This document shows, piece by piece, positions 37,218-54,267 of a stretch of 64,000 nt of DNA. This DNA is from Leucobacter triazinivorans. Lineage in GTDB: Bacteria > Actinomycetota > Actinomycetes > Actinomycetales > Microbacteriaceae. The translations under genes and the position numbers were made by a program. The notes under the pieces were generated by a model. It ran no database searches, was not told the origin of the DNA, and was given only the letters and a program-made list of their open reading frames with translations. Within the stretch, counting starts at the first letter, position 1. Every line of letters starts with the position of its first letter. The stretch is from the NCBI RefSeq assembly GCF_004208635.1, contig NZ_CP035806.1, positions 2,976,001 through 3,040,000 of the forward strand, given 5' to 3'.

Positions 37218-38006
37218 TCAGGTGAGCAGCTGCCCGCCGTCGACCGCCAGGCTCACCCCTGTGATGTGCGCCGCACCGGCGCCCGCCAGGAAGGTCACGG
37301 CCGGGGCGATGTCGTCCACCCGCGCGAGATCGCCCAGCGGGATGCGGCTCGACCACGCCTCTCGTGCGGGCGATCCCTCGGGCATGCCCATTTCGAGCAT
37401 GGGGGTGAGGACCGGCCCGGGGGCGACCGCGTTGACCCGGATCCCGTGCGCCGCGAGCTCGATCGCCGCCCAGCGTGTCACCGAGTCGACCGCGGCCTTG
37501 CTCGACTCGTAGGCGCCCATGCCGGGGGTCGGCTGACGCCCGCCGATCGAGGAGATGTTGACGATCGAGCCACCGCCTCCCGCCGCGATCCGGTGCGCTG
37601 CGAACGCCTGGATCATGGTGAACGTGCCGATCACGTTGACCTCGAGGATGGAGCGGTAGGCGTCGGGGCCGAGTTCGGTGACGGCGCCGTGCACCGAGAG
37701 GATGCCCGCGTTGTTGACGAGCACGTCGGCGCCGCCGGCGCCCCCGTCCTGCGCGGGGCGCGCGAACGCGGCCGCCACGGCCTCCGCGTCGGTGATGTCG
37801 AGCGCGAGCGCGCTGACGGGCGTGCCGGTGTTCGCACCGCCGCTCGCGCCGACGCTCTCGGCGAGCGCTGCGGACGCCGCGTGCACCGCCGCGGCATCGC
37901 GATCCGCGAGGATCACGCGGGCGCCCGACTCGATGAACGCCCGGGCGATGCCCTGGCCGATGCCGCCGGCGCCGCCGGTGATGAGAACGGTGCGGGGAGA
38001 GGTCAC
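37218..38006 (-). CDS. short-chain dehydrogenase/reductase
   Basis: A 262-residue SDR with nucleotide-binding GGAGGIG, NNAG, catalytic Ser in NISSIGG and YESSK. The C-terminal HITGVSLAVDGGQ is typical. It oxidises or reduces an alcohol/ketone with NAD(P). The GTG start follows GAAGGAG. It is divergent from the second aldo/keto reductase. A TTCTAC-type palindrome lies between the two genes, so it probably belongs to the same regulon. Confidence 0.92.
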   Translation of the reverse strand: MTSPRTVLITGGAGGIGQGIARAFIESGARVILADRDAAAVHAASAALAESVGASGGANTGTPVSALALDITDAEAVAAAFARPAQDGGAGGADVLVNNAGILSVHGAVTELGPDAYRSILEVNVIGTFTMIQAFAAHRIAAGGGGSIVNISSIGGRQPTPGMGAYESSKAAVDSVTRWAAIELAAHGIRVNAVAPGPVLTPMLEMGMPEGSPAREAWSSRIPLGDLARVDDIAPAVTFLAGAGAAHITGVSLAVDGGQLLT

Positions 38007-38072
38007 GGTGACTCCTTCGTCGTGGGCCGCCGCGAAGGATTCGTGGAGGCACTGGATCGGTGGTGGTTTATA

Positions 38073-38088
38073 TTATACGATTGTAGAA
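38073..38088. promoter_or_regulatory. candidate operator of the 33-45 kb regulon, site 2
   Basis: TTATAC-GATT-GTAGAA, 11 of 12 positions of the consensus. The wider word TACGATTGTAGAAAATAA matches 16 of 18 bases at 41541-41558. Confidence 0.55.
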
Positions 38089-38154
38089 AATAAAGAGCAA
38101 TGGGCTCGGGTGCGCGCACGCGGCCCGGCTCGCGAGTGCTGCGAGGAGGCGGTT

Positions 38155-39153
38155 GTGACGTTCACTGGTGAGGTGCCCGTGCGGAGACTCGGGCCCGGAG
38201 GCCCGGAGGTGCCGGTCTTCGCGCTCGGCTCCTGGAACATCTGGGACCGCATGGAGCCCGAGGATCGCCGTGCGCTCATCGAGCGCGCGGTCGAGGCCGG
38301 TACGGCGTTCTTCGACGTGGCCTACTACAACATGGGGCCGCACGCCGAGGCCTCGCGCACGGATCTGCTCTTCGGCGAAGCCATCCGCGAGCTCGGGCTC
38401 GACCGATCCCGATATCAGCTGTGCGGCAAGCTGTGGCTGTGGGAGTACCCGCGCACCGGTTTCGCCGAGCAGATGGACGTGTCGCTCGAGCGGATCGGCG
38501 CCGCCGGGGCGGATCCCGGATCGTTCGAGACCGTGGTCGTGGGCGACTTCATGGGAGACATCGACATCGCGCAGGTGGTGCGCGATGTCCAGCTCGAGAT
38601 CGACCGCGGCAGCTTCGCGAGCTGGGGCGTCAACAACTGGCCGGCCGAGGCGCTGCAGCTGGCGCTCGACACCGCAGAGGCCGAGGGGCTCACCGCGCCG
38701 AGCTTCGCGCAGCTGAAGTACGGTCTGGTGCGCCGCAGCATGGCGGAGGGGGAGTTCTACGGGAAGTGGTTCGCCGACGGCACGCTCGCGCTGCAGGCCT
38801 CCGACGCGTTCGAGGGCGGGATCCTGGTCGGCAAGCTCACTCCCGGGCGCAAGATCGGCGCCGACGTGGGCGGGATCCGCGAGCGGATCGTCGCCGCGTA
38901 CCCGCGCGTCGCCGAGATCGCGGCCTCGTTCGGCGCGACGCCCGCGCAGCTCGGGATCGCGTTCTGCCTCGCGAACCCCGCCACCGCGAACGTGCTCTTC
39001 GGCGCGTCGAGCGTGCGGCAGCTGGATGACAACCTCGGCGCGATCTCGCTGCTGGCGCGGGAGGGCGCGGAGCGGATCCGCGAGGCCACGGCAGAGCTCT
39101 GGCTGGACCGCGAGGTGCGCGCCGACGGGGTCTGGGCGCCGCCCGCGGCGTAG
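38155..39153 (+). CDS. aldo/keto reductase family protein (paralogue)
   Basis: A 332-residue TIM-barrel reductase close to the protein at 33177. Shared words include FALGSW.I.DRM, SWGVNNW or AWGVNNW, and FGASSV.QL..NLG. Asp and Tyr are in FFDVAYYN and Lys in LCGKLW. The catalytic His position again carries Gly (VVVGDFMGD). GAGGAGG lies five bases before the GTG start. It is divergent from the SDR. The sharing of an odd active site by two paralogues suggests a real, specialised function. Confidence 0.88.
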   Translation: MTFTGEVPVRRLGPGGPEVPVFALGSWNIWDRMEPEDRRALIERAVEAGTAFFDVAYYNMGPHAEASRTDLLFGEAIRELGLDRSRYQLCGKLWLWEYPRTGFAEQMDVSLERIGAAGADPGSFETVVVGDFMGDIDIAQVVRDVQLEIDRGSFASWGVNNWPAEALQLALDTAEAEGLTAPSFAQLKYGLVRRSMAEGEFYGKWFADGTLALQASDAFEGGILVGKLTPGRKIGADVGGIRERIVAAYPRVAEIAASFGATPAQLGIAFCLANPATANVLFGASSVRQLDDNLGAISLLAREGAERIREATAELWLDREVRADGVWAPPAA

Positions 39154-39265
39154 TCCGCGTCCTTCGGTGCGCGCCGTGCCTGCGCCGCGCCCGCGCCGTG
39201 CCTGCGCCCGCCGCGCCCGCGCCCGCCGCGCCCGCCGCGCCCGCCGGCGATCCCATCTCGCCCTC

Positions 39266-39332
39266 CCGAAGTGGGAGTCCCGTTCTGCCGCATCACCGCT
39301 GACGAAGCGGCAGAACGCGACTCCCACTTTCC
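39266..39332. repeat. intergenic inverted repeat, family A copy 2
   Basis: The left arm CCGAAGTGGGAGTCCCGTTC continues as in copy 1 to 39290. The right arm 39308-39332 is the near-complement with a few changes. Before it, 39160-39250 is a GCGCCCGCC-type low-complexity run. Confidence 0.75.
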
Positions 39333-39500
39333 GTGTTCTGAGGAGGAGAGGCAGGACGCGGGTCACGACCGGCGGCAGGTACGGTGCCCGGGGCGGCGCG
39401 CTTCGCTCACAGACTGCGGATCCTTGGGATCCTCGTCATTTCTGCCAGGGCCTCTGTGGACCACTCGATGCGGGGCGGGGCATCGGATCAGTATGGAGGC

Positions 39501-40439
39501 ATGTCGAGGATCGCCGGGCCGTTGCCCCATGAGTTGCGCGCCGCGCCGTTCACGGTGCGGCAGGCCGCTGCGGCCCGGATCCCGCTCGGCCGCCTGCGCA
39601 GACTCGACCTGGATCACGAGTTCCGCGGCGTGCGCGAACTGCGACGACCCGGTCCGGCCCTCGACCGGGTCGCTGAGCTCGCACGCAGGTCTCGCCTCGC
39701 CCTCGCGGGCAAGCCGGCGAGTTGGGCCGTGTCGGGCGCGACGGCGGCCCTGCTGCACGGCCTCTATCTCCCCAGAACGCTCGAGCGCGATGCGCGGCTG
39801 CACGTGGTCGCGATCGGAGCGGCGAACGCGCCGCGCGGGTCCGGAATCGTCGGCAGGCGCACCGGTCTTCCGGTGCCGGTCGTGCACGCCCGCGGAGTGC
39901 GGGTCGTGGTCCCGGAATATGCTTGGGCCGCGCTGGCCTCCCTGCTCGATGACGAGGAATCGCTGGTCGTCGCAGGCGAGCGGCTGTGGGATCCGTTCGA
40001 CCCGATCGCGACTGTCGCGGCGGTCGATGCGATGCTCTCGAGCCTCGGCAACTGGAACGGGGTATCTCGCCTCCGTGCGGCCCGCAGGCTGATGCGGCCC
40101 GGCTCGCACTCGCCGAGGGAGACGCTGATGAGGCTCCTCTTCGAGCGCAACGGCCTGCCGACCGGGGTGCCCAACGGTCGGATCGACGTGCGGAGCGGTC
40201 GGACCTACTACGGCGACCTCGTCTTGCGGGAGTATCGGATCGTCTTCGAGTACGACGGTGGTTGGCACTGGGACGAGCAGGGGCGCAGGCGAAGCGAGGA
40301 TCTGCGGCGTCAGAACGAGCTGGGAGCGGAGGGCTGGCTGCTCGTCAGGTTCGCCTCCGAGAGCGCTGAGGAGGGAATGCTCGAGATGGCGCGGGCTGCC
40401 TTGCGCTCTCGCGGCTGGCGCTCGGACGACGCGACATGA
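39501..40439 (+). CDS. AbiEi-like N-terminal / DUF559-like nuclease-fold protein
   Basis: A 312-residue protein of a kind common in actinobacteria. The N-terminal half resembles the AbiEi winged-helix antitoxin-like proteins (SWAVSGATAALLHGLYLP). The C-terminal ~100 residues resemble DUF559/Vsr-type endonuclease folds (DLVLREYRIVFEYDGGWHW, then LRRQNELGAEGWLLVRF, with Asp and Glu in place for metal). Function is unknown; it is not a toxin-antitoxin pair, as no partner is seen. GGAGG precedes the ATG. The gene is flanked on both sides by family A hairpins, unlike its catabolic neighbours. Confidence 0.7.
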   Translation: MSRIAGPLPHELRAAPFTVRQAAAARIPLGRLRRLDLDHEFRGVRELRRPGPALDRVAELARRSRLALAGKPASWAVSGATAALLHGLYLPRTLERDARLHVVAIGAANAPRGSGIVGRRTGLPVPVVHARGVRVVVPEYAWAALASLLDDEESLVVAGERLWDPFDPIATVAAVDAMLSSLGNWNGVSRLRAARRLMRPGSHSPRETLMRLLFERNGLPTGVPNGRIDVRSGRTYYGDLVLREYRIVFEYDGGWHWDEQGRRRSEDLRRQNELGAEGWLLVRFASESAEEGMLEMARAALRSRGWRSDDAT

Positions 40440-40543
40440 CTCGGGATCGCATCCGGTGACGCCAGTGTTGCCGGTGGTGCTTGCGGTGCCGGTGGTGCTT
40501 GCGGGGCCGGTGGTGTTCGGAGTCTTCGGGGTGCCTCATCTCC

Positions 40544-40610
40544 CCGAAGTGGGAGTCGCGTTCTGCCGTTTCGGACCACGGATAGCGGCAGAACGCGACT
40601 CCTGCTTCGG
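40544..40610. repeat. intergenic inverted repeat, family A copy 3
   Basis: Arms 40544-40568 and 40586-40610 are near-perfect complements of 25 bases (CCGAAGTGGGAGTCGCGTTC at the left end), with a 17-base loop. It lies between convergent genes. Three copies of GCCGGTGGTG precede it at about 40470-40515. Confidence 0.8.
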
Positions 40611-40619
40611 GTGGATCCG

Positions 40620-41339
40620 CTATGCCAGGAACTGGATCGCGGCCGTCCGGAACTCGATGCTGTCGAGCGCGCCACGGTGATCACCCGGCACGTGGGTGAG
40701 TGCTCCCTGGCGGAGCGCCTCCGCGAGCTCTTCGATGCCCCGGGTCATCGGATCGCCGCTCCCCGCGACGAGCAGGGCCGGCACCTGCGGCGCCGCCGTC
40801 TGCGGAGCGAACGGCTCCGAGGCGAGGCCCGGGATCAGCCGAGCGAGCGACTCAGTATCTCGACCGGGCGCCGAGATCATCCCTGCCATCATGCCGACGA
40901 GCGGGGTGCTGGGCTCCGCTCCGAGAAGCACGGCATCGAGTTCGGCGGGGTCGACAGTGGCGAAGGGCTCGAACGGGCTGAGTCCGCCGAGCACCACCCG
41001 GCGCACCCTCGGTGACGCCGCAGGGAGCTCCCAGGCGAGCCGCGCGCCGAGGGAGTACCCCACCACGTCGAAGGGTCCCTCGGGAACGGCGGCAGAAATG
41101 GCCTCGAGGATCGCGGCGACGACCGCCGATGTGGTCGCCCGGGTGTCGGCATCGACCGAGGGGCTCCCTCCGTGGCCGGGGAGGTCTACGGCGATGACCG
41201 TGCGTCCAGCGGCGGCGAGGGACTCGGCCCAGCCGGTTGCGAGGTAATCCTCGGCGGCACTGGACGCGAACCCGTGGAGGAGTACGACGGGCGGGTGCGC
41301 GGATCCCGGGGAGGGGAGGTGATGGATTGCGAGGGGCAT
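40620..41339 (-). CDS. alpha/beta hydrolase
   Basis: A 239-residue single-domain hydrolase of the MenH/esterase type. It has the oxyanion strand VVLLHGFASS, nucleophile GYSLGAR, acid in AGSGDPMT and histidine in VPGDHRGALD. The start is chosen at the ATG after GAAAGG; the open frame goes further upstream without homology. It is divergent from the methyltransferase-like operon, and two regulon-type palindromes lie in between. An ester, thioester or lactone could be the substrate. Confidence 0.88.
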   Translation of the reverse strand: MPLAIHHLPSPGSAHPPVVLLHGFASSAAEDYLATGWAESLAAAGRTVIAVDLPGHGGSPSVDADTRATTSAVVAAILEAISAAVPEGPFDVVGYSLGARLAWELPAASPRVRRVVLGGLSPFEPFATVDPAELDAVLLGAEPSTPLVGMMAGMISAPGRDTESLARLIPGLASEPFAPQTAAPQVPALLVAGSGDPMTRGIEELAEALRQGALTHVPGDHRGALDSIEFRTAAIQFLA

Positions 41340-41537
41340 GGGTGACCTTTCGTCGGCGAATGGCGGAGTGTATGTATGGAATGAGGGTGTGATGGTGTGA
41401 TGAAACCGCGATATCACTGAGGATGCGTTTCGGTCCGGGAGCAGTGCGGTCGGGCGCGCGGTGGCGCGGGCAGTGCGGGAGCGGCGAGGGGGCGAGAGCG
41501 GGGTGCGCCGCCCGGGGCGGCCCACCGCGATGTGTTT

Positions 41538-41553
41538 TTCTATGATAGTAGAA
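41538..41553. promoter_or_regulatory. candidate operator of the 33-45 kb regulon, site 3
   Basis: TTCTAT-GATA-GTAGAA, 11 of 12 positions of the consensus TTCTAC-N4-GTAGAA, in the 338-bp divergent region upstream of the methyltransferase-like gene. The rest of 41340-41677 shows no gene. Confidence 0.6.
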
Positions 41554-41583
41554 AATAAGCTCGGCGGGCGCTGGACTTTAAGT

Positions 41584-41599
41584 TTCTACAGTTGTAGAG
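41584..41599. promoter_or_regulatory. candidate operator of the 33-45 kb regulon, site 4
   Basis: TTCTAC-AGTT-GTAGAG, 11 of 12 positions of the consensus; the inner TCTACA-GT-TGTAGA is a perfect dyad. It is 46 bp from site 3, which is compatible with co-operative binding. Confidence 0.65.
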
Positions 41600-41677
41600 T
41601 TTCCCGCAGGCCACCATTCGGACATCGTCGTCCCGCAATCGCCGGGACGGCCCGCACAGCGAAGGACGATCCACACC

Positions 41678-42652
41678 ATGACCGCAACCCCCGAACGCAT
41701 CGTCGACATCGCCATCGGCTTCATGGGCGCGAAGCAGCTCGACGCGGCGAGCCGCATCGGCATCTTCACGGCCCTGGCCGACGGTCCCAAGAACGTCGCC
41801 GAGCTCGCCGCGGCAACGCAGCACGCCGAGCGCCAGGTGCGCACGCTGGCCGACGCCATGAACTCGCTCGGGCTGCTCGACCGCGAGAACGGCAGCTACT
41901 CGCTCCAGGCCGACGCCGCGAAGTATCTCTCGGGCGCGGGCGAGATCGATCTGACCCCCTTCATCGCCTTCCTCGGCGACATCAGCTACCGGCAGTGGCT
42001 GGGATACGGCCGCACCGTCGACTCCGACGAAGCGGGCACCCTCGACCTCGACGAGGCCGGCTGGGGCGAATTCATGAACGGCGTCATGACCTACAACGCG
42101 CTCCACGCCGAGCAGTTCGGCCGAGCCTTCGACTTCTCGGGATTCCGCAGCGCGCTCGACTTCGGCGGCCTGGCGGCGGGCTTCTCCATCGAGGCGATGC
42201 GGCAGAATCCCGAACTCACGACGCGCTTCGTCTACGCCCCGGGCTTCACCGACGGGATCGCCGCAGCGGCCCGTGAGGCGGGCGTCGCCGATCGCATCGT
42301 GCTGGAGGAGGGGCCGACCGAGTCCACCGCTCCCGGCGGCGATCACGATCTGCTGCTGCTCACGCACGTGCTGCACCGCTTCGACGAGGCGCAGAACCGC
42401 GCGATCCTCGCCGCGGCCCGCGACGCCGCCGCCGACGGGGCCACCCTGATGCTGCTCGACTTCTTCCTGGACCGTGACGAGGTGCAGCGCCCCATCGACG
42501 CCCTGCACGCCGGCGAGTACTTCAACATCGACGGCACCGTCGTCTACCCGATCGAGCAGGTCGAGGGGTGGCTCGCCGAGACCGGGTGGACGGTCGACCG
42601 CCTGGTCGCGCTGCCGGGCAGTCCGCGCGTGCTCGTCGCCACCGCCTCCTGA
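41678..42652 (+). CDS. methyltransferase-like protein with degenerate SAM site
   Basis: A 324-residue protein of the plant-type/antibiotic O-methyltransferase fold. The N-terminal helical dimerisation domain is typical (DIAIGFMGAKQLDAASRIGIF, RTLADAMNSLGLLDR). The SAM loop, normally LDVGGGxG, reads ALDFGGLAAG. The acidic residue expected at the end of the second strand is absent (RFVYAPGFT). The later THVLHRFDEAQNRAIL segment is conserved. It may bind SAM poorly or have a new role. GAAGGA precedes the ATG. Two phosphotriesterase-like genes follow directly. Confidence 0.82.
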   Translation: MTATPERIVDIAIGFMGAKQLDAASRIGIFTALADGPKNVAELAAATQHAERQVRTLADAMNSLGLLDRENGSYSLQADAAKYLSGAGEIDLTPFIAFLGDISYRQWLGYGRTVDSDEAGTLDLDEAGWGEFMNGVMTYNALHAEQFGRAFDFSGFRSALDFGGLAAGFSIEAMRQNPELTTRFVYAPGFTDGIAAAAREAGVADRIVLEEGPTESTAPGGDHDLLLLTHVLHRFDEAQNRAILAAARDAAADGATLMLLDFFLDRDEVQRPIDALHAGEYFNIDGTVVYPIEQVEGWLAETGWTVDRLVALPGSPRVLVATAS

Positions 42653-42671
42653 CCCATCCGGCCGCTCCGCC

Positions 42672-43838
42672 GTGTCCACGCTCACCACCGTTCTCGGCCG
42701 GATCGACTCCGGCTCTCTCGAGACCGTGCTCGCCGCGGAAACCCTGCTGTGCGCGCCGGCCGATGACCCGGGGCCCTGCGGGCGGCCGGCGACCGACGCG
42801 GCATTCGAGCGTGCACCGGTGACGATGGAGCGGCTCGGCCGGCTGATGCTGGGGGCGGAGAACCGCGACGACCGCACGCTCGCGGGCGCGGACGCCGAGG
42901 CCGCGCTGGACGGCCTCGCGGCCACCGTCTCGCACGGTGCGCTCACCGGTGACGTCTCGCACGGTGCACACACCGGCAACGGCCGACCCGTTCCGCGCCC
43001 CGCCGCGGCGGTCGTCGTGCTGGCGGGACGCGGATCGACCGCGACTCCCGCGCTGCTCGCCGCGCTCAGCCGGGCGAGCGGCGTGGCGCTGGTGCGCGGC
43101 GTCGACGGCTCCCAGGGGCCGCACGGTGCGGCCTGCGGAGCTGCTCCGGAGCTCGTCGCCGAGCGCATCGCCGCCGCGCTGTGCGCCGCGGAGCACGCGG
43201 CGGGCGCGGTCGGTGCGCTGCCGCTGCCAGCCCCGGATCCCGCCGCCGACCCGGCGGATGCGGCGCGCATCGAGGCGGCGGCGGGAGCGGCGCGCGCGGC
43301 GGGCGCCGCGCTGGTGCTCGCGCCGCGCGAAGACCCCTGGGGTATCGCGATCGCCGACGAGCCCGGTCGCGGGTCACTGCTCCGCGCGCTCGCCGCCGTC
43401 GATGCCGCGGGGCTCGAACGCGACCGGGTGATCCTGGGCGGTGCGGCGGCGTGCATCGCCCGGCGCGACGGCCGCGGCGCACCGCTCGCCGGCGTCGATC
43501 CCGCGCGTCTCGACGCGCTGCTCGGCCTCGGCACCGCGATCTGCTTCGACGATCTGGGGAGGATCCCGAACGTGCGCACCGCGGTCTCCGACCACGATGT
43601 CGCACTGGCGGTTCTGCGAGCCGCCGAGCGAGGGGACGCGTCGCGGATCCTGCTCAGCAGCGGGATCCGCAACAAGCATCGTCTCACCGCGTACGGGGGC
43701 ACCGGGCTCGAGTTCGTCCCGGAGCGATTCCTGCCTTACCTCCGCGGGCTCGGGGCGAACGACGCGCTGCTGCGCGCGGTCGGCGGAGCCAACGCGGCCG
43801 GTGTGCTCGCGCGCGCGACGACGGAGCAGACATCGTGA
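42672..43838 (+). CDS. phosphotriesterase-like protein lacking metal ligands
   Basis: A 388-residue protein homologous along its length to the next gene. The opening VLGRIDSGSLETVL aligns with VLGPVSPQALGTTL, and the end LTAYGGTGLEFVPERFLPYLRGLG matches the family's C-terminus. The HxH metal box (MHEH in the neighbour) reads AAET at residues 21-24. The strands that should carry two His and one Asp read LVLAPRE, VILGGAA and LLSSG. It should not bind the binuclear metal centre, so it is probably a pseudoenzyme or partner subunit. The GTG start has no clear ribosome site; coupling to the gene 19 bp upstream is likely. Confidence 0.75.
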   Translation: MSTLTTVLGRIDSGSLETVLAAETLLCAPADDPGPCGRPATDAAFERAPVTMERLGRLMLGAENRDDRTLAGADAEAALDGLAATVSHGALTGDVSHGAHTGNGRPVPRPAAAVVVLAGRGSTATPALLAALSRASGVALVRGVDGSQGPHGAACGAAPELVAERIAAALCAAEHAAGAVGALPLPAPDPAADPADAARIEAAAGAARAAGAALVLAPREDPWGIAIADEPGRGSLLRALAAVDAAGLERDRVILGGAAACIARRDGRGAPLAGVDPARLDALLGLGTAICFDDLGRIPNVRTAVSDHDVALAVLRAAERGDASRILLSSGIRNKHRLTAYGGTGLEFVPERFLPYLRGLGANDALLRAVGGANAAGVLARATTEQTS

Positions 43839-45025
43839 CCGGCGCGCACACCGGGGCTCGGGGTCGTCCGGGCGAGGCCCCGGGGCATCGATCCGCGGGG
43901 CTCGACACCCGTGTGATCCCGGATCGCGACGCGCGGGTGATCCCGACCCTCGACTCCCTCGTGATCCCGAACCTCGAGGGCCTCGTGCAGACCGTGCTCG
44001 GCCCGGTGTCGCCGCAGGCGCTCGGCACCACGCTGATGCACGAGCACCTCTTCCTCGACATCCGTCGTCCGGCGCACTCCCGCAACCCGCGGCCGGGCGA
44101 GTGGGAGCCGCAGGCCCGGGATCCGCTGACGCTCGCGAATCTCGCCGCGGTGCGCGGCGGCCGCCCCAATGCCGACAACGACGTTCTCGGGGATCTCGCG
44201 GAGATGCTCGACGAGATCGGCGATTTCGCGCGTCAGGGCGGTGGCGCGATGGTCGAGGTGACGAGCGCGGGCATCGGGCGCGATCCGCGGGCGCTCGCCC
44301 GGCTGAGCCGCGCGTCGGGGCTGCATCTCGTGATGGGCGCCGGGTGGTATCAGCGGGACCTCCACCCCGCGGACTTCCCGGACCGGACCCTCGAAGACCT
44401 CACGGCCGAGATCGTGCGCGATCTCGTCGTGGGGGTCGACGGGACCGGGATCCGATCCGGCATCATCGGAGAGGTGGGAGCCGAGGGCGATCCCGTGGAT
44501 CCGCAGGAGATGCGCAGCGTGCGCGCTGCGGGCCGGGCCGCGGCGATCACGGGCGCGCCGATCACCCTGCACATGGGCGGCTTCGGCGAGGCCAAGCTGC
44601 GCGTGCTCGACGCGCTCGAGGAGGAGGGGGCTGATCCCCGATCCGTGATCTTCGGACACGCCGGATCCATCGCCGACGACATGCACCTCGCCAGGCGCCT
44701 GCTCGCGCGCGGGGCGTCCGTCGAAGCCGACTTCCTCGGCACGACGGGCAGTCCCTGGGGCACGCTCTTCCCGTTCACCGATCGCACCGCGGCGCGCGGC
44801 TTCGCCGAGCTCGTCGCCGACGGCTGGGGCGCGCAGCTGGTGCTCGGCGGTGACGTCTGCCAGCGGGTGCAGCTGCGCCGCTGCGGCGGGCACGGCTACG
44901 GATACGTCGTGGAGCACTTCCTGCCGACGCTGGCGGAGTTCGGGGTGGGGCCGGCCGACCTCGACCGGATCATGGTCGAGAACCCGGCACGGCTGCTGGC
45001 CTTCCGGGCGCCGCGGGCGGCGTGA
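43835..45025 (+). CDS. phosphotriesterase-like metal-dependent hydrolase/lactonase
   Basis: A 396-residue amidohydrolase-superfamily enzyme with a full metal set: His69 and His71 (MHEH), Glu213 in IIGEVG as the bridging ligand, His246 (TLHMG), His275 (FGHAG) and Asp340 (LGGDV). Members hydrolyse phosphotriesters or, more often, lactones. The GTG overlaps the pseudoenzyme stop (GTGA). The first ~50 residues are a repetitive leader (RVIP, RVIP, LVIP), and the fold starts near residue 50. It forms one operon with the two degenerate proteins upstream. Confidence 0.9.
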   Translation: MTGAHTGARGRPGEAPGHRSAGLDTRVIPDRDARVIPTLDSLVIPNLEGLVQTVLGPVSPQALGTTLMHEHLFLDIRRPAHSRNPRPGEWEPQARDPLTLANLAAVRGGRPNADNDVLGDLAEMLDEIGDFARQGGGAMVEVTSAGIGRDPRALARLSRASGLHLVMGAGWYQRDLHPADFPDRTLEDLTAEIVRDLVVGVDGTGIRSGIIGEVGAEGDPVDPQEMRSVRAAGRAAAITGAPITLHMGGFGEAKLRVLDALEEEGADPRSVIFGHAGSIADDMHLARRLLARGASVEADFLGTTGSPWGTLFPFTDRTAARGFAELVADGWGAQLVLGGDVCQRVQLRRCGGHGYGYVVEHFLPTLAEFGVGPADLDRIMVENPARLLAFRAPRAA

Positions 45026-45115
45026 GTCGGCGGCGTGAGGCGGCGGTCTGGGGCGGCGGCGCACGGCAGAAGCCCGAGAGCGGCCGCCGCGTGCGTCAGG
45101 GCCTCGGACTGAACA

Positions 45116-45712
45116 TCAGTCGGCGCGACGCAGACGCGCGATGAAGTCGGTGACCTGCGCGTCGAGCACGGCGACGCTCATGTGCTCGGGGCTGACCACC
45201 CGCACCACCGTGGCGCCGATGTTCATCATGACGATCTCGTCGACGAGCTGCTCGTCCGGGGTCGCGGTGACGATGTCGCCGTCCTCGCGGCCCTCCCGCA
45301 GGTACTGCCGGTGCATGGCCTTCCAGGAGTCGAGGTGCTCGCTGTAGCCGTGGTCGAGCTCCGGGCTGAACGCGCACCGCTCCCAGAACGAGAGCAGCAC
45401 CCGGGCCGCGGTGGCGTCGCCCTCCTCGATCGGCAGGGTGAAGCGCATCGACATCTCGAGCGCCTCGATGCCGCGCCGGCCCGCGACGTGTGCGGCGAGA
45501 CGGTCTCCGAGGCCGTGCAGCGACCGTTCGTAGGCGCCCTTGATGATCTGGTCCTTGCCCGTGAAGTAGTGCTTCAGCGCACCGTTCGCGAATCCGGCGC
45601 GCGCGGCGATCTCGCGCATCGTCGCGGCTTCGATGCCTCCCTCGACGATCAGTTCCCAGGTGACGTCGACGATGTCGCTCCGTCGCTGATCGTGGTCGAT
45701 GATCTTCGGCAT
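45116..45712 (-). CDS. TetR/AcrR family regulator
   Basis: A 198-residue repressor. The helix-turn-helix TMREIAARAGFANGALKHYFTGKDQI lies at residues ~31-56; the ligand domain is of the BetI-like type. It opens with PKIIDHDQRRSDIV, close to the second TetR at 47622 (PKIVDHDERRAHIV), so the two are paralogues. It is convergent with the phosphotriesterase operon and divergent from the GMC gene. It is the best candidate for the TTCTAC-N4-GTAGAA sites; this is inference. GAAGGA precedes the ATG. Confidence 0.9.
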   Translation of the reverse strand: MPKIIDHDQRRSDIVDVTWELIVEGGIEAATMREIAARAGFANGALKHYFTGKDQIIKGAYERSLHGLGDRLAAHVAGRRGIEALEMSMRFTLPIEEGDATAARVLLSFWERCAFSPELDHGYSEHLDSWKAMHRQYLREGREDGDIVTATPDEQLVDEIVMMNIGATVVRVVSPEHMSVAVLDAQVTDFIARLRRAD

Positions 45713-45930
45713 GGCGGCGTCCTTCGGCGTGCGGCGAGTTTTTCTCCTCCAGTGTAGACGAACCGGGCCGCCAACGGTCGGCTCGCGGCCGGGCGACGTC
45801 TGTTGCGCTGGAGCGCACGCGCGTTGATCGACCGGGCACGACCGGCAGCCGGTGCTCGACCGTCGCTTCGTGTCGGTGCGATGCTTGAATGGACTGTGCG
45901 GCGAGGGTGCCGCGAGCGAGAGGAGTTCTG

Positions 45931-47517
45931 ATGTCGAGTCAGTCCGGATCGGCCGCGCGGCCGAACAGCGTGATCGTGGTGGGTGCGGGGTCGGCCGGTT
46001 CCGTGGTCGCCCGTCGCCTCACCGACGCCGGGGTGGAGGTGACGCTTCTCGAGGCCGGGGGCGAGGACACCAACCCCGCGATCCACGACCTGAGCCGAAT
46101 GGGCGAGCTGTGGCACAGTCCCGACGACTGGGACTACTACACGGTGCCGCAGGAGGGCGCCGGCGGGCACCGCCTGCACTGGCCGCGGGGCAAGGTGCTG
46201 GGCGGATCCCACTCGTTGAACGCCATGATCTGGGTGCGTTGCGTGCCCGGCGACTTCGACCACTGGGCTTCCCTCGGCAACCCGGGCTGGGAGTGGGAGA
46301 GCGTGCTCCCCGTCTACCGGGACATCGAGAACTACCGGGGCGCGGGGGATCCCGAGTGGCACGGCACCGACGGCCTGCTCGACGTCACCGACGAGTACGA
46401 GCTGTCGCCGATCCAGGCGTCGATCATCGATGCCGCGGTGGAGGAGGGGCTGCCGCGCAATCCCGACTACAACGGTGCGTCGATCGAGGGCGTGTCGCAG
46501 CAGCAGGTGACGATTCGGGATGGCAAGCGCCTCAACACCTACATGGCGTACGTGAAGCCGGTGCGGGATCGCCTCACCCTCGAGGTGGGCTGCCACGTGC
46601 ACGAGCTGATCTTCGCCGACGAGGCCGACGCGCCCGAGGGCGGCCGGCCCCGGGTTGTCGGTGTGCGCTTCGCCCAGGGCGGGCGGCTGCGCGAGCTGTT
46701 CGCCGACGAGGTGATCCTCGCCGCAGGTGCGATCGATTCGCCGCGGGTGCTGCTGCGCAGCGGGATCGGCCCCGCCGACGAGCTGGGCGAAGTGGGGATC
46801 GCGTCGCGCGTCGACCTGCCCGGCGTGGGCAAGAACCTGCACGACCACTACCTCGCGCCCGTGATCTTCGACACCGCCGCGCCCATCGACCCGCCCCGCG
46901 AGGGCGTGTCGGTGACCCAGTCCCACCTGTTCTGGAAGAGCCGGGAGGATCTGGATCGCCCCGATACGCAGCCGATCTTGTTCTCGGTGCCCATGTACGG
47001 CGACTTCCTCGAGCCCCAGGGCGGCAACGGCTTCTCGCTGATGGCCGGACTCGTGACCCCGGAGTCGCGGGGCGAGATCCGGCTGTCCGGGCCGAATCCC
47101 GAGGATCCGCTGCTGCTGGACCCGCACGCGCTGGAGCACGAGGACGACGTCGCGTCGCTCGTCGCCTCGGTGCGTCAGTGCCGCCGCATCGGCCGGCAGC
47201 CGGCGCTCGCGGCCGCGCCGGCGGACGGCGGCTGGGGCGCCACGGAGATGTACCCCGGTCCCGAGGTGGGGGATGGTGAGGATCTCGTGGAGTACGTGCG
47301 CAACACGCTCGCGACGTATCACCACCAGGTCGGCACCTGCAAGATGGGTGTCGACGAGCTGGCCGTCGTGTCGCCGCGGCTCGCGGTGCACGGGGTGGAC
47401 GGGCTGCGGGTGATCGACGCGTCGATCATGCCCCGCGTCACGACGGGCAACACGAACGCCCCGTCGGTGCTGATCGGCGAGCTCGGCGCGCGGTTCGTGC
47501 TGAACGGGGAGCGGTAG
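45931..47517 (+). CDS. GMC-family FAD oxidoreductase
   Basis: A 528-residue flavoenzyme of the glucose-methanol-choline family, oxidising a primary or secondary alcohol. The FAD motif GAGSAGSVVARRLTDAG is near the N-terminus, and the GMC boxes PRGKVLGGSHSLNAM and GAIDSPRVLLRSGIGP follow. The catalytic His is in YHHQVGTCKMG and the partner Asn in TTGNTNAPS. GAGAGGAG precedes the ATG. It lies between two TetR genes and is probably controlled by one of them. It could feed the alcohol/aldehyde steps of the neighbouring cluster. Confidence 0.92.
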   Translation: MSSQSGSAARPNSVIVVGAGSAGSVVARRLTDAGVEVTLLEAGGEDTNPAIHDLSRMGELWHSPDDWDYYTVPQEGAGGHRLHWPRGKVLGGSHSLNAMIWVRCVPGDFDHWASLGNPGWEWESVLPVYRDIENYRGAGDPEWHGTDGLLDVTDEYELSPIQASIIDAAVEEGLPRNPDYNGASIEGVSQQQVTIRDGKRLNTYMAYVKPVRDRLTLEVGCHVHELIFADEADAPEGGRPRVVGVRFAQGGRLRELFADEVILAAGAIDSPRVLLRSGIGPADELGEVGIASRVDLPGVGKNLHDHYLAPVIFDTAAPIDPPREGVSVTQSHLFWKSREDLDRPDTQPILFSVPMYGDFLEPQGGNGFSLMAGLVTPESRGEIRLSGPNPEDPLLLDPHALEHEDDVASLVASVRQCRRIGRQPALAAAPADGGWGATEMYPGPEVGDGEDLVEYVRNTLATYHHQVGTCKMGVDELAVVSPRLAVHGVDGLRVIDASIMPRVTTGNTNAPSVLIGELGARFVLNGER

Positions 47518-48468: not shown

Positions 48469-49485
48469 ATGCAGAAATCCAACCGCCTCGCCGCCGGCAT
48501 CGCGCTCGCGGCCTCGGCCGTCCTCGCCCTCGCGGGCTGCTCGTCCGGGACCTCCGGTCAGGACGACGCCGGCTCGGACGCCATGGACGGCGGCGAGCTC
48601 ACGACGCTGAGCGTGGCGACCATCGGCCTCACGTCCGACGGCAGCCTCCTCACCGGCATCGAGCAAGGCTTCTTCGAGGAGGAGGGGCTCGAGATCGAGA
48701 CCTCGATCGTCGCCAACCCGCCCGCGGGCCTCGCCGCGGTGCAGAGCGGGCAGGTCGACATCGCCTACTCCCCGAGCATCCCGCTGCTCAACGCGCTCAG
48801 CCAGGGCGTGCCCATCCAGGTGATCGGCGCGGCCGACGGGTATCCCGACGACCCCGCGGAGATCGACGACCCCGCCGAGTTCGACGACACCGGGCTCTTC
48901 GCCGCGGTCGACAGCGGCATCGAGTCGATCGAGGATCTCGACGGCAAGACGATCGCGATCCCCGCGCGCAAGGCGCAGCTGGAGGTCGTCATCGCAGGCG
49001 AGCTCGAGAAGGCCGGGATCGACCCGGCGAGCGGCGTCAACTGGGTGGTGCTCGACTTCACCTCCGCCGTGGCCGGGCTCAAGAACGGCACGGTCGACGC
49101 CGCCGGCCTCGTGAGCCCCTTCACCACCGAGGCGGCAGAGGCGGGCGCGACCCAGCTCTCCGCGCCGTCGATCGGCTTCTTCGAGACCGGTGCGACCGGC
49201 CTGTGGACCGCCGGCACGGCGACCGTCGAGGAGAAGGGCGAGGCCATCGCCGCATTCCAGCGCGCGATCGTCAAGTCGAACGAGTACGCCACGGCCAACC
49301 CGGAGGAGGCGATCCAGGCAGGCCTCGACTACACGGGATCGACGCTGACGGTCGACCAGGTCAAGACCCCGGTCTGGCCCCTGGTGGTGAACCCGGAAGA
49401 CCTGGAGCGCCCCAACGAGAAGATGGTCGCCCTCGGCTTCCTGCCCCAGCCGGTCGATCTCGACGGCGTGATCCTGCAGGGCTGA
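48469..49485 (+). CDS. ABC transporter substrate-binding lipoprotein, NMT1/SsuA type
   Basis: A 338-residue lipoprotein with lipobox LAGC at the end of a signal peptide. It has the NMT1/SsuA-like fold (GIEQGFFEEEGLEIETS, LAAVQSGQVDIAYSPS). Relatives bind sulfonates, nitrate, pyrimidine precursors or aromatic acids. GAAGGAG lies six bases before the ATG. It leads the operon with two permeases, an ATPase, a sulfatase and an amidase, so a sulfated or amide-containing compound is a reasonable ligand; this is inference. Confidence 0.92.
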   Translation: MQKSNRLAAGIALAASAVLALAGCSSGTSGQDDAGSDAMDGGELTTLSVATIGLTSDGSLLTGIEQGFFEEEGLEIETSIVANPPAGLAAVQSGQVDIAYSPSIPLLNALSQGVPIQVIGAADGYPDDPAEIDDPAEFDDTGLFAAVDSGIESIEDLDGKTIAIPARKAQLEVVIAGELEKAGIDPASGVNWVVLDFTSAVAGLKNGTVDAAGLVSPFTTEAAEAGATQLSAPSIGFFETGATGLWTAGTATVEEKGEAIAAFQRAIVKSNEYATANPEEAIQAGLDYTGSTLTVDQVKTPVWPLVVNPEDLERPNEKMVALGFLPQPVDLDGVILQG

Positions 49486-49494
49486 CCCACGACC

Positions 49495-50274
49495 ATGCGA
49501 GACTCTCGACTGCTCAATTCCGGCATCGGCGCGCTGGGCGCCGTGGCGGCGATCGGCCTCTGGCAGTTCGCCGCTACGGCGGGGCCGCTGGCCGACTCGC
49601 CGCTGCCGACCGCCGTGGATGCGTTCCGCGCGTTCTTCGGCCTGCTCGGCACTCCCGAGATGTGGATGGCGACCTGGGACACCGTGTACATGGCGCTCGT
49701 GGGCCTCATCGTCGCGACGGTGGCGGGCGTGCTGCTGGGTGTGGGCATCGGCGTCTCGCCGCTCGCCATGCACGCCACGCGCGTGCCGCTCGAGTTCTTG
49801 AAGCCGATCCCGCCGATCGTGATCCTGCCGGTGGTGGTGCTCGTGCTCGGCCCGACCGCGGGCATGGGCGTGTTCCTCGTGTTCATGGGCTGCTTCGTGT
49901 CGATCGTGGTGCAGTCGTCGGCCGGGGTCTTCGACACCGACCCGGTGGCGAAGGCGACCGGGCAGTCGTACGGCCTCGGTTCGGGCGAGATCCTCGGGCG
50001 CATCGTGCTGCCGAGCGCCCTGCCCTACATCGGCACGGCGGTGCGGGTGGCGGCGCCCACCGCGCTCATCGTCGCGGTGGTGGCCGGGCTGCTGGGCGGG
50101 GGCCCCGGGCTCGGGCAGAGCCTGCTGCTCGCCCAGATCACCGGCAACCAGGATCAGCTGTTCGCCTACGTGCTGATCCTCGGCGTGCTCGGCCTCATCG
50201 TGCAGGGACTCAGCCAGTGGGGCGAGCGGCGCCTGCTGCACTGGCATCCCCAGTATCGGAAGCAGGTGGTGTGA
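49495..50274 (+). CDS. ABC transporter permease, SsuC/TauC type (first)
   Basis: A 259-residue permease with about six membrane segments. The EAA loop is near SYGLGSGEILGRIVLPSALPYIG. It starts 9 bp after the binding-protein gene and ends in a TGATG overlap with the second permease. Importers of this family normally use one permease gene as a homodimer. Confidence 0.9.
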   Translation: MRDSRLLNSGIGALGAVAAIGLWQFAATAGPLADSPLPTAVDAFRAFFGLLGTPEMWMATWDTVYMALVGLIVATVAGVLLGVGIGVSPLAMHATRVPLEFLKPIPPIVILPVVVLVLGPTAGMGVFLVFMGCFVSIVVQSSAGVFDTDPVAKATGQSYGLGSGEILGRIVLPSALPYIGTAVRVAAPTALIVAVVAGLLGGGPGLGQSLLLAQITGNQDQLFAYVLILGVLGLIVQGLSQWGERRLLHWHPQYRKQVV

Positions 50275-51110
50275 TGACGTTCACCTCGACCGTCCTCGTG
50301 CGCACGCGCGAGGCCCGACGCCAGAAGCGCAGCGGTCTGCCCAAGTGGGTGCTGATCGGCGCCGAGATCCTCGTGCCGATCCTGCTGCTGGCCCTGTGGT
50401 GGGTGGCCTCGGCGGGCTCGACGAACACCTTCTTCCCGCCGCTGCAGACGATCCTCCAGCGCCTCGTCGAGCTGCTCGGCACGCCGATGTTCTGGGGCGA
50501 CGTGGGATCCTCGGTGGGCAACCTGGTGCTCTCGTTCGTGCTGGCCTGCGCGATCGGCGTGCTGCTGGGCATCGTGCTCGGCACCTCGCGCTGGCTCTCC
50601 GCGCTCGTCGAGCCGACCATCCACTTCTTCCGCGCCATCCCGCCGGTCGCGCTCGTGCCGATCTTCGTGTCGCTCATCGGATTCGGCAACGAGACCCGAA
50701 TCCTCGCCATCACGCTCTCGGCGCTGTTCCCCGTGCTCATCTCGACGATCGACGGCATCCACGCCACCGATCCCGACCGACGCGCCGTGGGGCAGATCTA
50801 CCGCCTGAGCCGCTGGGACCGCGTCTTCTCGGTCGCCCTTCCCGAGGCGAGCCCGCGCATCCTGTCGGGCATGCAGGTGAGCCTGATCACGGCCTTCGTC
50901 GTGATGGTCGCGAGCGAGATGCTCGGCTCCTCCAACGGCCTCGGGGCCCGGACGCTGCTCGCGCAGCAGTCCTTCATGATCGCCGACATGTGGGTCGGGA
51001 TCCTCGTGCTGGGCATCATCGGCTACGCCGCCACCGCCCTGCTCTCCCTCTTCCGGCGCCGCGTGCTGCGCTGGTACATCGCGATCCGACAGCAGGAGAA
51101 GAACCTATGA
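50274..51110 (+). CDS. ABC transporter permease, SsuC/TauC type (second)
   Basis: A 278-residue permease of the same family, with EAA loop QIYRLSRWDRVFSVALPEASPRIL. Its sequence differs widely from the first, so it is not a recent duplicate. The two probably form a heterodimer. It overlaps the ATPase gene by ATGA. Confidence 0.9.
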   Translation: MTFTSTVLVRTREARRQKRSGLPKWVLIGAEILVPILLLALWWVASAGSTNTFFPPLQTILQRLVELLGTPMFWGDVGSSVGNLVLSFVLACAIGVLLGIVLGTSRWLSALVEPTIHFFRAIPPVALVPIFVSLIGFGNETRILAITLSALFPVLISTIDGIHATDPDRRAVGQIYRLSRWDRVFSVALPEASPRILSGMQVSLITAFVVMVASEMLGSSNGLGARTLLAQQSFMIADMWVGILVLGIIGYAATALLSLFRRRVLRWYIAIRQQEKNL

Positions 51111-51901
51111 ACACCACCTCGACCGTCGACGCGCCGGCGCGCCTGAGCGTGCAGGGCCTCGCCAAGACCTACGACACGAAGCACGGCCCGGTGCCCGTGA
51201 TCGCGGACCTCACGTTCGACGTGCGCAGCGCCGAGATCGCGTGCATCGTCGGCCCGTCGGGCATCGGGAAGACCACGCTGCTCAAGTGCCTCACCGGTCT
51301 GCAGTCGATCACGTCGGGCTCGGCGCGGATCGACGGCAAGCAGATCGACGGGCCGCCGGAGGAGATGGCGCTCGTGTTCCAGGAGTACACGCGATCGCTC
51401 ATGCCCTGGCTGACGGTGGAGAAGAACGTGCGGCTGCCGCTGAAGCACCTGCGCCTGCCCGCCGCCGAACGCGAGGAGCGGATCGGCTCGGCCCTCGCCG
51501 CCGTCGGCCTCGCCGGCGCAGAGGCGAAGTACCCGTGGCAGCTCTCCGGCGGCATGCAGCAGCGCGTGGCGATCGCCCGCGCGATCGCCTACCGGCCCGA
51601 GGTGCTCATCATGGACGAGCCCTTCGCGTCGGTCGACGCCCAGACCCGCTTCGAGCTCGAGGATCTGTGCCTCAAGATCCGCGAGGAGTTCGGCATGACC
51701 ATCGTCATCGTCACCCACGACATCGACGAGGCCGTCTATCTCTCCGACCGGGTCGTCGTGCTCGGGGAACGCCCCGCCCGCGTCACCGAGATCATCGACA
51801 TCGACTTCGGCGGCCCGCGGGATCAGATCACCACCCGCTCGGTGCCCGAGTTCGCCGAACTGCGCACCCGCATCTTCGAACTCATCCGGAAGGCGGGCTG
51901 A
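51107..51901 (+). CDS. ABC transporter ATPase, SsuB/TauB type
   Basis: A 264-residue ATPase. It has Walker A GPSGIGKTT, Q-loop VFQEYTRSLMPWLTV, signature LSGGMQQRVAIARA, Walker B VLIMDEPFASVD and switch His VTHDIDEA. The Q-loop and its MPWLTV extension are typical of nitrate/sulfonate importers. The sulfatase gene follows after two bases. Confidence 0.93.
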   Translation: MNTTSTVDAPARLSVQGLAKTYDTKHGPVPVIADLTFDVRSAEIACIVGPSGIGKTTLLKCLTGLQSITSGSARIDGKQIDGPPEEMALVFQEYTRSLMPWLTVEKNVRLPLKHLRLPAAEREERIGSALAAVGLAGAEAKYPWQLSGGMQQRVAIARAIAYRPEVLIMDEPFASVDAQTRFELEDLCLKIREEFGMTIVIVTHDIDEAVYLSDRVVVLGERPARVTEIIDIDFGGPRDQITTRSVPEFAELRTRIFELIRKAG

Positions 51902-51903
51902 GC

Positions 51904-54267
51904 GTGGGGGCGCGGCCCGGGGCGGCCGAGCGGCGGCGCGCGAGCGGCCCGGATCCGGCGGGGAGCCGGGGCTACGAGTCGTTCGGCGGCGGCGTCGCGG
52001 AGTTCGCCTCCGAGTCGTCGCCGTGGTGGCGACCGCGGCCGACCGCTCCGGCGGGATCGCCGAACGTCATCGTGATGCTCGTCGACGACCTCGGTTTCAG
52101 CGATCTCGGTCCGTTCGGCAGCGAGATCCCCACGCCGAACATCGACGCGCTGGCCGACGACGGCTGGGTGTTCACGAACTACCGCACCGCTCCCATGTGC
52201 TCGCCCGCCCGGGCCGCGCTCTTGACGGGGCTGAACCCGCACCGCGCCGGCTTCGGCTTCGTCGCGCACACCGATCCCGGCTACCCGGGATTTACCTGCG
52301 AGCTCCCTGACGACGCGCCCACCCTCGCCGAGTCCCTGCGCGCGGGCGGCTACGCCACATTCGCGGTGGGCAAGTGGCACCTGACCCTCGAATCGCGGTT
52401 GCACGACGCGGCCGACCGCTCGTCGTGGCCCCTGCAGCGGGGCTTCGATCGCTACTTCGGCAGCATGGACGGCTTCACCTCGCTGCACCACCCGCACCGG
52501 CTCGTGCGCGACAACTCAGTGGTCGATGTGCAGCAGTTCCCCGACGGCTACTTCCTCACGGATCAGCTCACGGATGAGGCGCTGGCGATGATCGACGAAC
52601 TGCGCGTCAACGACGCGGAGAAGCCGTTCTTCCTCTACTACGCCCACACCTCTGTGCACGGCCCGATCCAGGCGAAGCCGGTGGACATCGAGCGCCATCG
52701 CGGACGCTACGAGGCGGGGTGGAACGCGCTGCGCGAGTCGCGGTTCGCGCGGCAGCGCGAACTGGGGATCGTGCCGCCGCACGCCGAACTGCCCGGAGAC
52801 GCGCTCGCCGACGGGGATCGGATTCCGCACTGGGAGCACCTCGGCGATGACGAACGCGCACTCTTCGCCCGCCACATGGAGGTCTACGCGGCAGCGGTCG
52901 ACGAGGTCGATCAGAGCGTCGGGCGTCTCGTCGCGCACCTCGAAGACCTCGGCGAGCGCGAGAACACGGTCATCGTGATCGCGAGCGACAACGGGGGGAC
53001 CGCGGAGGGCGGCCCGAGCGGCACGCGCAGCTACTTCGCGCAGTTCGGGCACTCGGCGCCGCTGCCCGACGGCTGGGTGCGCGACGTGCCGAGGGACCCG
53101 GAAGAGATCGGGGGACCCCGGGTGTTCTCGCAGTACCCGACCGGGTGGGCCCGGGTCTCGAACACCCCGTTCCGCTCGTTCAAGTCGTCGACCTACGAGG
53201 GCGGTGTGCACGCGCCGCTCATCGTGTCGTGGCCGGAGGCGCCCGTCGCCGCGCGCGGCCTGCGCGATCAGTTCGTGTTCGTGTCCGACCTCTCGCCCAC
53301 GATTCTCGATCTCGTCGGCGTCCCGCCGCTCGCCGAACTGCGCGGGCGGCCGGCGCAGGAGATCGACGGTCGCAGCGTCGCCGGGGTGCTCAGAGACCCC
53401 GCCGCCGAGGGGCGCGCGGCGCAGTACTTCGAGTGCGTGGGGCGCCGTGCGATGGTCGACGGCGAGTGGAAGGCGGTCTCGCCAGAGCCGCCGCGGCGCG
53501 AGGAGGGCGCGGCCGGCGGCCGCTGGGAGCTGTACCACCTCGCCGACGACCCCACGGAGACGCGGGATCTTGCCGCGGACAGACCCGAGCGCGTGGCCGA
53601 TCTCGCCGAGCGCTGGCGCTCCGAGGCGTGGCGCAACACGGTCTTTCCGCTCGACGACGACGGCACGCTCCACAGCACGCGCCCGGCCACCGAGGCCGCG
53701 CTCGCCGCTCCCGTGGCGCTCGTGCCGTTCCGCGCGCCGCTCGAGCGGTTCCGCTCGGCGCAGCTCACGGTGCTGAAGTCGTTCGCGGTGGAGGCGACCG
53801 TCGTGGTCGGCCCCGACACCGCGGGGGTCGTCGTCGCGCACGGCGACCAGGGCGGGGGATACCTGCTCGGCATCGAGGACGGCGCGCCGTTTCTCTCGTA
53901 CAACGCCTACGGCGAGATGCACCGCGCGATCGGGCCGGTGCTCGCACCGGGAACCAGGGAGCTCGTGCTGCACGTCGACGAGTCGGAGGGCCTGCGCTGG
54001 CGGCTGCGGCTCGAGGTCGACGGCGAGCGCTCGGCCGAGATCGCCGGGGTGCCGATGCTGCTCGGCATGGCGCCGTTCACCGGCATCAGCGTCGGCTACG
54101 ACTACGGGGGGCCCGTGGACTGGGAGCTGCACGAGCGGCACGGCGACGGCTTCCGCTTCTCGGGCGGTGCGATCGAGCGCCTGCGCTACGTGCCCGGTGC
54201 GCGCTCACGGCACGATCCGACCGTGCTGCGCCGCATCGGCGAGGCGGTCGCCGAGCTGGCCGACTGA
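51904..54267 (+). CDS. formylglycine-dependent arylsulfatase
   Basis: A 787-residue type I sulfatase. The CxPxR motif CSPAR at residues 99-103 makes Cys99 the formylglycine precursor. The metal Asp pair is in VDDLGFSDLG, and GKWHL and ASDNGG complete the active site. A C-terminal extension of ~200 residues (LKSFAVEATVVV onward) looks like a beta-rich lectin-like domain of large arylsulfatases. No signal peptide is visible, so it is probably cytosolic, acting after import. It needs a formylglycine-generating enzyme encoded elsewhere. The GTG start lies two bases after the ATPase stop. Confidence 0.92.
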   Translation: MGARPGAAERRRASGPDPAGSRGYESFGGGVAEFASESSPWWRPRPTAPAGSPNVIVMLVDDLGFSDLGPFGSEIPTPNIDALADDGWVFTNYRTAPMCSPARAALLTGLNPHRAGFGFVAHTDPGYPGFTCELPDDAPTLAESLRAGGYATFAVGKWHLTLESRLHDAADRSSWPLQRGFDRYFGSMDGFTSLHHPHRLVRDNSVVDVQQFPDGYFLTDQLTDEALAMIDELRVNDAEKPFFLYYAHTSVHGPIQAKPVDIERHRGRYEAGWNALRESRFARQRELGIVPPHAELPGDALADGDRIPHWEHLGDDERALFARHMEVYAAAVDEVDQSVGRLVAHLEDLGERENTVIVIASDNGGTAEGGPSGTRSYFAQFGHSAPLPDGWVRDVPRDPEEIGGPRVFSQYPTGWARVSNTPFRSFKSSTYEGGVHAPLIVSWPEAPVAARGLRDQFVFVSDLSPTILDLVGVPPLAELRGRPAQEIDGRSVAGVLRDPAAEGRAAQYFECVGRRAMVDGEWKAVSPEPPRREEGAAGGRWELYHLADDPTETRDLAADRPERVADLAERWRSEAWRNTVFPLDDDGTLHSTRPATEAALAAPVALVPFRAPLERFRSAQLTVLKSFAVEATVVVGPDTAGVVVAHGDQGGGYLLGIEDGAPFLSYNAYGEMHRAIGPVLAPGTRELVLHVDESEGLRWRLRLEVDGERSAEIAGVPMLLGMAPFTGISVGYDYGGPVDWELHERHGDGFRFSGGAIERLRYVPGARSRHDPTVLRRIGEAVAELAD

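Follow-up and report, generated by a model that had tools for sequence, protein, structure and literature searches.

A metal-less phosphotriesterase homologue retained beside an intact sister gene in Leucobacter, and a second such pair in other bacteria

The locus and its two phosphotriesterase-family genes

We analyzed a stretch of 64,000 nucleotides from the single-contig, 3.48 Mb genome of Leucobacter triazinivorans (positions 2,976,001 to 3,040,000 of NZ_CP035806.1), called the window below and numbered from its first letter. Three genes follow one another on its plus strand, at the positions given for them in an earlier note on this DNA: a methyltransferase-fold gene (MT), a phosphotriesterase-family gene whose product has lost every metal ligand (PTEd) and a second member of the same family whose ligands are intact (PTE). 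Their open reading frames (ORFs) and the features discussed below are as follows.

41678..42652, plus strand: MT, methyltransferase-fold gene, ORF of 324 amino acids (PF08100 and PF00891)
42672..43838, plus strand: PTEd, phosphotriesterase-family pseudoenzyme, full length, all six metal ligands lost, ORF of 388 amino acids
42729..42743, plus strand: former HxH metal site of PTEd, residues 20-24, now L-A-A-E-T (Glu kept in 17/17 copies)
43530..43607, plus strand: best conserved block of PTEd (residues 287-312, GTAICFDDLGRIPNVRTAVSDHDVAL), with pairs of the 17 copies identical at 0.78 of positions on average
43650..43766, plus strand: second conserved block of PTEd, residues 327-365, mean pairwise identity 0.69, with the Asp ligand replaced by Gly331
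43835..43838, plus strand: four-base overlap GTGA of the PTEd stop with a possible PTE start (later starts are possible at 43913, 43937 and 43961)
43835..45025, plus strand: PTE, RBP/PTER-like phosphotriesterase-family metallohydrolase with intact ligands, ORF of 396 amino acids (PF02126)

PTE matches PF02126 at 185 bits (cut-off 22.4, E 2e-54) and the solved protein 3k2g over nearly its whole length (E 1e-69). Its ligands H69, H71, E213, H246, H275 and D340 form the pattern HHEHHD in 17/17 aligned Leucobacter copies, placing the downstream protein in the phosphotriesterase family with its metal site intact, as the earlier note had it. The PTE counts leave out one copy (L054 9857-10995, in G028), in which a frameshift seems to separate the HxH region from what follows; it is the sole apparently frameshifted PTE in the Leucobacter stretches read, and PTEd is open there. 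We predict PTE to be a metal-dependent hydrolase of the resiniferatoxin-binding protein (RBP)/PTER branch of the family (PF02126; 3k2g, 9efa), which it resembles in its near full-length match and its six ligands, Glu included, and from which PTEd differs in having no ligand at all. In PTER, residues R204, R233 and H300 contact N-acetyltaurine, according to an excerpt of PMC11374699. PTE differs in having Gly, Ser/Thr and Cys there, the positions being inferred by spacing from the ligands, so that it is probably not an N-acetyltaurine hydrolase, an identity we disfavour.

Taken singly, PTEd of the window scores 18.3 bits against PF02126, under the cut-off of 22.4. A profile of the 17 complete PTEd copies (a copy split in G001, L052 and L053, is left out of all counts) aligned with positions 4-349 of the 356 of 3k2g (E 5e-28), its best match among the 122 solved sequences found. 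This match, together with the sister position of PTEd to the live copies in the tree described below, makes PTEd a member of PF02126 by descent. When PTEd was aligned with PTE, the HxH strand read AAET vs. MHEH, the carboxylate strand VGALP vs. IGEVG, the strands of the third and fourth His LVLAP vs. TLHMG and LGGAA vs. FGHAG, and the Asp strand LSSGI vs. GGDVC. A-E-T thus stands for H-x-H, Ala for the carboxylate and the third His, and Gly for the fourth His and the Asp. The same substitutions were visible when the 17-copy profile was aligned with 3k2g, and in a multiple alignment none of the six ligands was kept in 17/17 complete PTEd copies, vs. all six in 17/17 PTE copies; PTEd therefore lacks the binuclear metal site of PF02126. 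The H230 column is His in 3/17 complete PTEd rows (L042, L047 and L048) and in the split copy L052 by the profile alignment and in 0/17 by the multiple alignment, suggesting that the local alignment is uncertain here; no PTEd row has more than one ligand by either. The earlier claim that every ligand is lost (AET for HEH, then LVLAP, LGGAA and LLSSG) holds up in the alignment with PTE, and the carboxylate (E169 position), which that claim had passed over, is gone as well.

Constraint on PTEd and its pairing with PTE

The PTEd frame is open in 17/17 complete Leucobacter copies. The median ratio of nonsynonymous to synonymous substitution rates (dN/dS; pairwise, NG86) was 0.42 for PTEd (125/136 pairs with dS<1.5), vs. 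0.21 for PTE (130/136 pairs) and 0.22 for MT (151/153 pairs). In a second alignment, the true frame of PTEd gave 0.45, vs. 1.45 and 1.61 for the two shifted frames (136 pairs each). The medians, compared with those of the neighbours and of the shifted frames, indicate that PTEd is constrained, about half as strictly as PTE and MT. Conservation is spread unevenly along the protein. Besides the two C-terminal blocks listed above, the second of which corresponds to loop 8 and the next helix of phosphotriesterases in the alignment with 3k2g, residues 20-72 are fairly well kept (mean pairwise identity 0.59), and regions 73-110, 146-200 and 218-238 are variable (0.15-0.24). R297, P299, S306, H308 and H336 are invariant in PTEd and have no match in the window PTE. 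The open frames, dN/dS values below 1 and invariant motifs of its own agree with the earlier suggestion that PTEd is retained under selection, and its relatives are not disrupted at random, a single apparent frameshift being seen in a distant copy (G931, below).

PTEd and the PTE orthologue occur together in 18/37 sampled Leucobacter genomes (our own and 17 of the 36 others, the named species L. salsicius and L. chromiireducens among them), and neither was found alone among the 37; some of the 19 genomes with neither gene are incomplete assemblies. All 16 measurable genomes have a possible PTE start that overlaps the stop of PTEd, by exactly four bases in 12 of them, and the gap between MT and PTEd varies from 2 to 141 bases at the starts picked for the comparison. 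Starting from the overlapping GTG, the window PTE would have 68 residues before HEH vs. 30-56 in its relatives, so a later start is possible in the window.

The three genes had been described earlier as coupled. This stands for PTEd and PTE, which form a conserved pair, but not for MT, which has a distribution of its own. The pair lies between MT and a regulator gene, a site at which it is absent in G024 and G035:

45116..45712, minus strand: TetR/BetI-like regulator (Pfam), convergent with PTE

MT occurs without the pair in these two genomes (whole genome) and, in the stretches fetched, without the pair alongside in G762, G133, G105 and G931; MT is thus not an obligate part of the unit. The trio as one obligate unit is rejected, since G024 and G035 have MT but not the pair, and the pair of G931 lies away from MT. 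Given the wider and separate distribution of MT, the 'trio' appears to be an independent gene with a pair set next to it, and the conserved unit, as judged from sequence, is the dead/live phosphotriesterase pair.

Pairs in other genera and a second, independent set

In another genus of the same family, four of the five genomes sampled have a dead/live pair after MT, in the same order. The ligand rows of its dead copies read HHRTDG in three and SHRADG in one, i.e. HxH is kept in three and has lost one His in the fourth, and the other four ligands are lost in 4/4. In one genome of a third genus (G931), the dead copy adjoins a live PTE (57% identical) at another locus, in the company of a ROK regulator, a YdjC-like protein and an MFS_2 sugar transporter, with MT elsewhere in the genome. 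In a tree, the dead (10 rows) and live (6 rows) copies of this Leucobacter-type set formed sister clades, each supported at 100/99 and jointly at 94/89. This tree took 6/17 PTEd and 3/17 PTE copies of Leucobacter, and 3/4 dead and 2/4 live copies of the second genus. An earlier tree of 52 rows, from which three distant rows had been dropped, split PTEd and the dead copies of the second genus from all other rows (100/99), with a warning of long branches.

In a second set, the gene immediately downstream of the dead copy encodes a live, lysine-type phosphotriesterase of the dead copy's sister clade (5/5 loci read). The set occurs in three genomes of the same family, in G381 (another family of the class) and on plasmid p2 of Caballeronia insecticola (L179 4890-6928, NC_021295.1). 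On this plasmid the two genes share a four-base overlap, and their annotations are 'phosphotriesterase' and 'aryldialkylphosphatase'; the other loci are L138, L140, L149 and L180. All five dead copies lack the Glu/Lys (E/K), H201, H230 and Asp ligands; four retain one His of HxH, and the Caballeronia copy retains neither. The tree joins the dead and the live copies of the second set as sisters (100/99), separate from the Leucobacter-type set, and this grouping of their own indicates that the second pair arose independently. Genes for a P450, a ferredoxin and a reductase precede the Caballeronia pair, and genes for an FAD monooxygenase, an alpha/beta hydrolase, an MBL-fold protein and a CocE/NonD protein follow it; by eye, similar genes come after the pair in L138, L140 and L149.

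In a third group of dead copies (L154 6487-7503, L155 6965-8005 and L152 7342-8805), HxH is kept and the other four ligands are lost. An aldehyde-dehydrogenase-like gene stands beside the copy in L154 and L155, by eye. The intermediate ligand sets in the copies read indicate that the four later ligands (carboxylate, two His and Asp) were lost first.

These copies came from several surveys. Profile surveys matched 91/398 genomes of the family and 45/246 of the phylum, counts that include many other phosphotriesterase-family genes, ligands having been read in fetched loci only. A survey of the order gave matches in 6/297 genomes including our own, of which three of the five others (all but G264 and G150) were read and are intact, and one of the phylum gave matches in 7/396, again including our own, with the six others read and intact, L102 being cut before the Asp. 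A plasmid search with PTEd gave no match; with a dead copy of the second genus it gave 166 records, the ten examined, by identity alone, being at 35-38%.

A possible role for PTEd, and known parallels

We lean, with modest confidence, towards PTEd being a non-catalytic protein retained as a partner of PTE next to it. The starting point would be a tandem duplication of an ancestral phosphotriesterase-like hydrolase gene, from a family of homodimers as in SsoPox. The upstream copy would first have lost the carboxylate, the two His that follow it and the Asp, with the HxH pair lost later in Leucobacter, while keeping its reading frame, the first strand region and the two C-terminal blocks, the second of which covers loop 8. 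We infer that PTEd and PTE would be made together through translational coupling and would form a heteromer, PTEd replacing one chain of the ancestral homodimer. In SsoPox, an excerpt of PMC3781021 places loop 8 at the homodimer interface; PTEd might supply stability or shape the active site of PTE on its loop 8 side, and PTE alone would carry out metal-dependent hydrolysis. The window neighbours include aldo-keto reductases, zinc and short-chain dehydrogenases and a GMC oxidoreductase and, with the sugar-transport setting in G931, they make a lactone a plausible substrate. Such a lactone, coming from the neighbouring dehydrogenases, would be the most likely one, and PTE is possibly a lactonase. 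The earlier interpretation of the locus is partly supported: the loss of ligands, the retention under selection and the degenerate SAM loop stand, and its heterodimer and its lactone or ester substrate are still conjectural. More tentatively, and at somewhat less than even weight, we propose that a phosphotriesterase-family homodimer was split at least twice into a heteromer of metal-less and metal-bearing sisters encoded by overlapping or adjacent genes, the later four ligands going first and HxH after, with the Leucobacter unit working beside an MT that has ceased to use SAM.

Several observations weigh against a partner role. The most conserved block of PTEd (287-312) is not known as an interface. 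The copies of the third group have no adjacent live sister in any of the three loci, so that loss of these ligands does not always go with a partner, and pairing recurs but is not universal. Of ten gene pairs compared for rate covariation, PTEd and PTE have the lowest value (partial r 0.14), not a raised one. PTEd evolves fastest among MT, PTEd and PTE. The dead copy of G931 (L144 8618-9627) has an apparent frameshift near its C-terminus, which could be real or a sequencing error. Lastly, Leucobacter genomes can lack both genes, and adjacency alone may reflect linkage.

The first three of these points, together with the invariant residues that PTEd does not share with the window PTE, would suit a metal-free barrel with a separate job in the same pathway, such as ligand binding or metal-free catalysis, that makes no contact with PTE. 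We regard this as unlikely, though it deserves to be taken seriously, since PTEd never occurs without PTE among the sampled Leucobacter genomes, the pair is still together at its other locus in G931, and the other conserved block covers an element that serves as an interface in SsoPox. Less likely again, PTEd would act during synthesis or as a regulator only, either helping transiently in assembly or inhibiting PTE, and would not be a permanent subunit. The overlapping possible starts fit co-translational action and PTEd evolves faster than PTE, but nothing speaks specifically for such a role, and a helper has no obvious need to retain loop 8 and helix 8. We consider it very improbable that PTEd binds metal through relocated ligands, as an enzyme of altered chemistry. 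D293, D307, H308 and H336 are invariant, but by alignment they lie outside the ligand columns. The intact PTE shares D293 and D307 with PTEd, and 9efa has an equivalent of H336; relocation is rejected, as no ligand set was seen elsewhere in PTEd in the alignments with 3k2g and PTE. That PTEd is a decaying pseudogene is hardly credible: its identity to the window copy (43-68%, below the 75-88% of MT) and its hypervariable Ala/Gly-rich inserts would fit, but every complete copy is open, the overlap with PTE is kept and dN/dS stays within 0.20-0.71 over 136/136 pairs and exceeds 1 in both shifted frames, on which grounds random decay is rejected.

With its catalytic residues lost, under purifying selection and beside a live paralogue, PTEd answers to the description of a pseudoenzyme. 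The proposed partner role for PTEd has parallels elsewhere. The pseudo-dihydroorotase of Pseudomonas aeruginosa aspartate transcarbamoylase is a member of the amidohydrolase superfamily. Like PTEd as proposed, it is an inactive subunit needed by an active enzyme: an excerpt of PMC7053772 describes the inactive dihydroorotase homologue as required for its partner's activity. That partner is an unrelated enzyme, whereas the putative partner of PTEd comes from its own sister clade. Dead paralogues of the prozyme type have other folds and are eukaryotic. In the trypanosome AdoMetDC prozyme and in deoxyhypusine synthase, a dead paralogue activates the live one as a heteromer, as stated in excerpts of PMC5201418 and PMC3663545. 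The likeness lies in a dead paralogue beside a live one, which form a heteromer there and are proposed to form one here. A search of open-access PubMed Central gave no paper joining phosphotriesterase and pseudoenzyme, and among the matches listed, as far as their excerpts go, none describes a dead paralogue supporting a live one in this family. Leucobacter and phosphotriesterase come up together in two papers listed there. Dead paralogues preserved next to live ones are in general a known kind; the phosphotriesterase case, arising twice and with intermediates, appears new in the literature searched.

The phosphotriesterase family has been studied for pesticide detoxification and the evolution of new activities. 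Living intermediates exist here, with HxH kept and four ligands lost or with all six lost, and with an independent pair in Actinobacteria and Caballeronia, which opens the sequence of ligand losses and the onset of dependence to direct testing. The pairs also carry a warning that genes annotated 'phosphotriesterase' may be non-catalytic.

The methyltransferase-fold protein and the wider neighbourhood

MT scores 35.1 and 38.3 bits against PF00891 and PF08100 (cut-offs 22.3 and 25.6), consistent with its fold. O-methyltransferases of these families usually carry an S-adenosylmethionine (SAM) motif GGGxG and an acidic residue after strand 2. MT lacks both, its motif I loop reading DFGGLAAGF vs. 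DVGGGTGAF in 7wdq. The broken SAM loop reported earlier is real and invariant, occurring with a Tyr at the acidic position in 18/18 Leucobacter copies. In wider rows including four other genera, DFGG is kept and the third Gly absent in 12/12, and the acidic position is Tyr or Phe in 12/12 (L107 has an Asp one residue on), indicating that the change is old and fixed. AlpH (8h3t), which is among the matches of the MT profile, and other SAM-independent O-methyltransferase-like enzymes share the fold and an altered glycine-rich loop, according to an excerpt of PMC10477347. The AlpH loop given there is CxGxG, whereas MT has other residues in place of the third Gly and of the motif II acid.

The order aldo-keto reductase, hydrolase, MT, PTEd, PTE, TetR is common to the 16 Leucobacter loci contained in single stretches, the strand of the reductase deviating in L049, and one further genome has the same gene set split over two contigs. 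From the neighbourhood at window positions 37900-47517, the aldo-keto reductase, alpha/beta hydrolase, MT and TetR genes recur in 16/16 of these stretches, and a GMC oxidoreductase lies near MT and the pair in 12/16, as fetched. In four genomes from other genera whose MT has no pair next to it, the stretch includes the hydrolase and a TetR gene in 4/4 and an aldo-keto reductase in 2/4. Further on in the window (48469-55664) come a gene for an SsuA-like substrate-binding protein (under the family cut-off) and, by eye, likely permease and ATPase genes, and after these a sulfatase and an amidase; the set possibly serves the uptake and use of sulfate esters or sulfonates.

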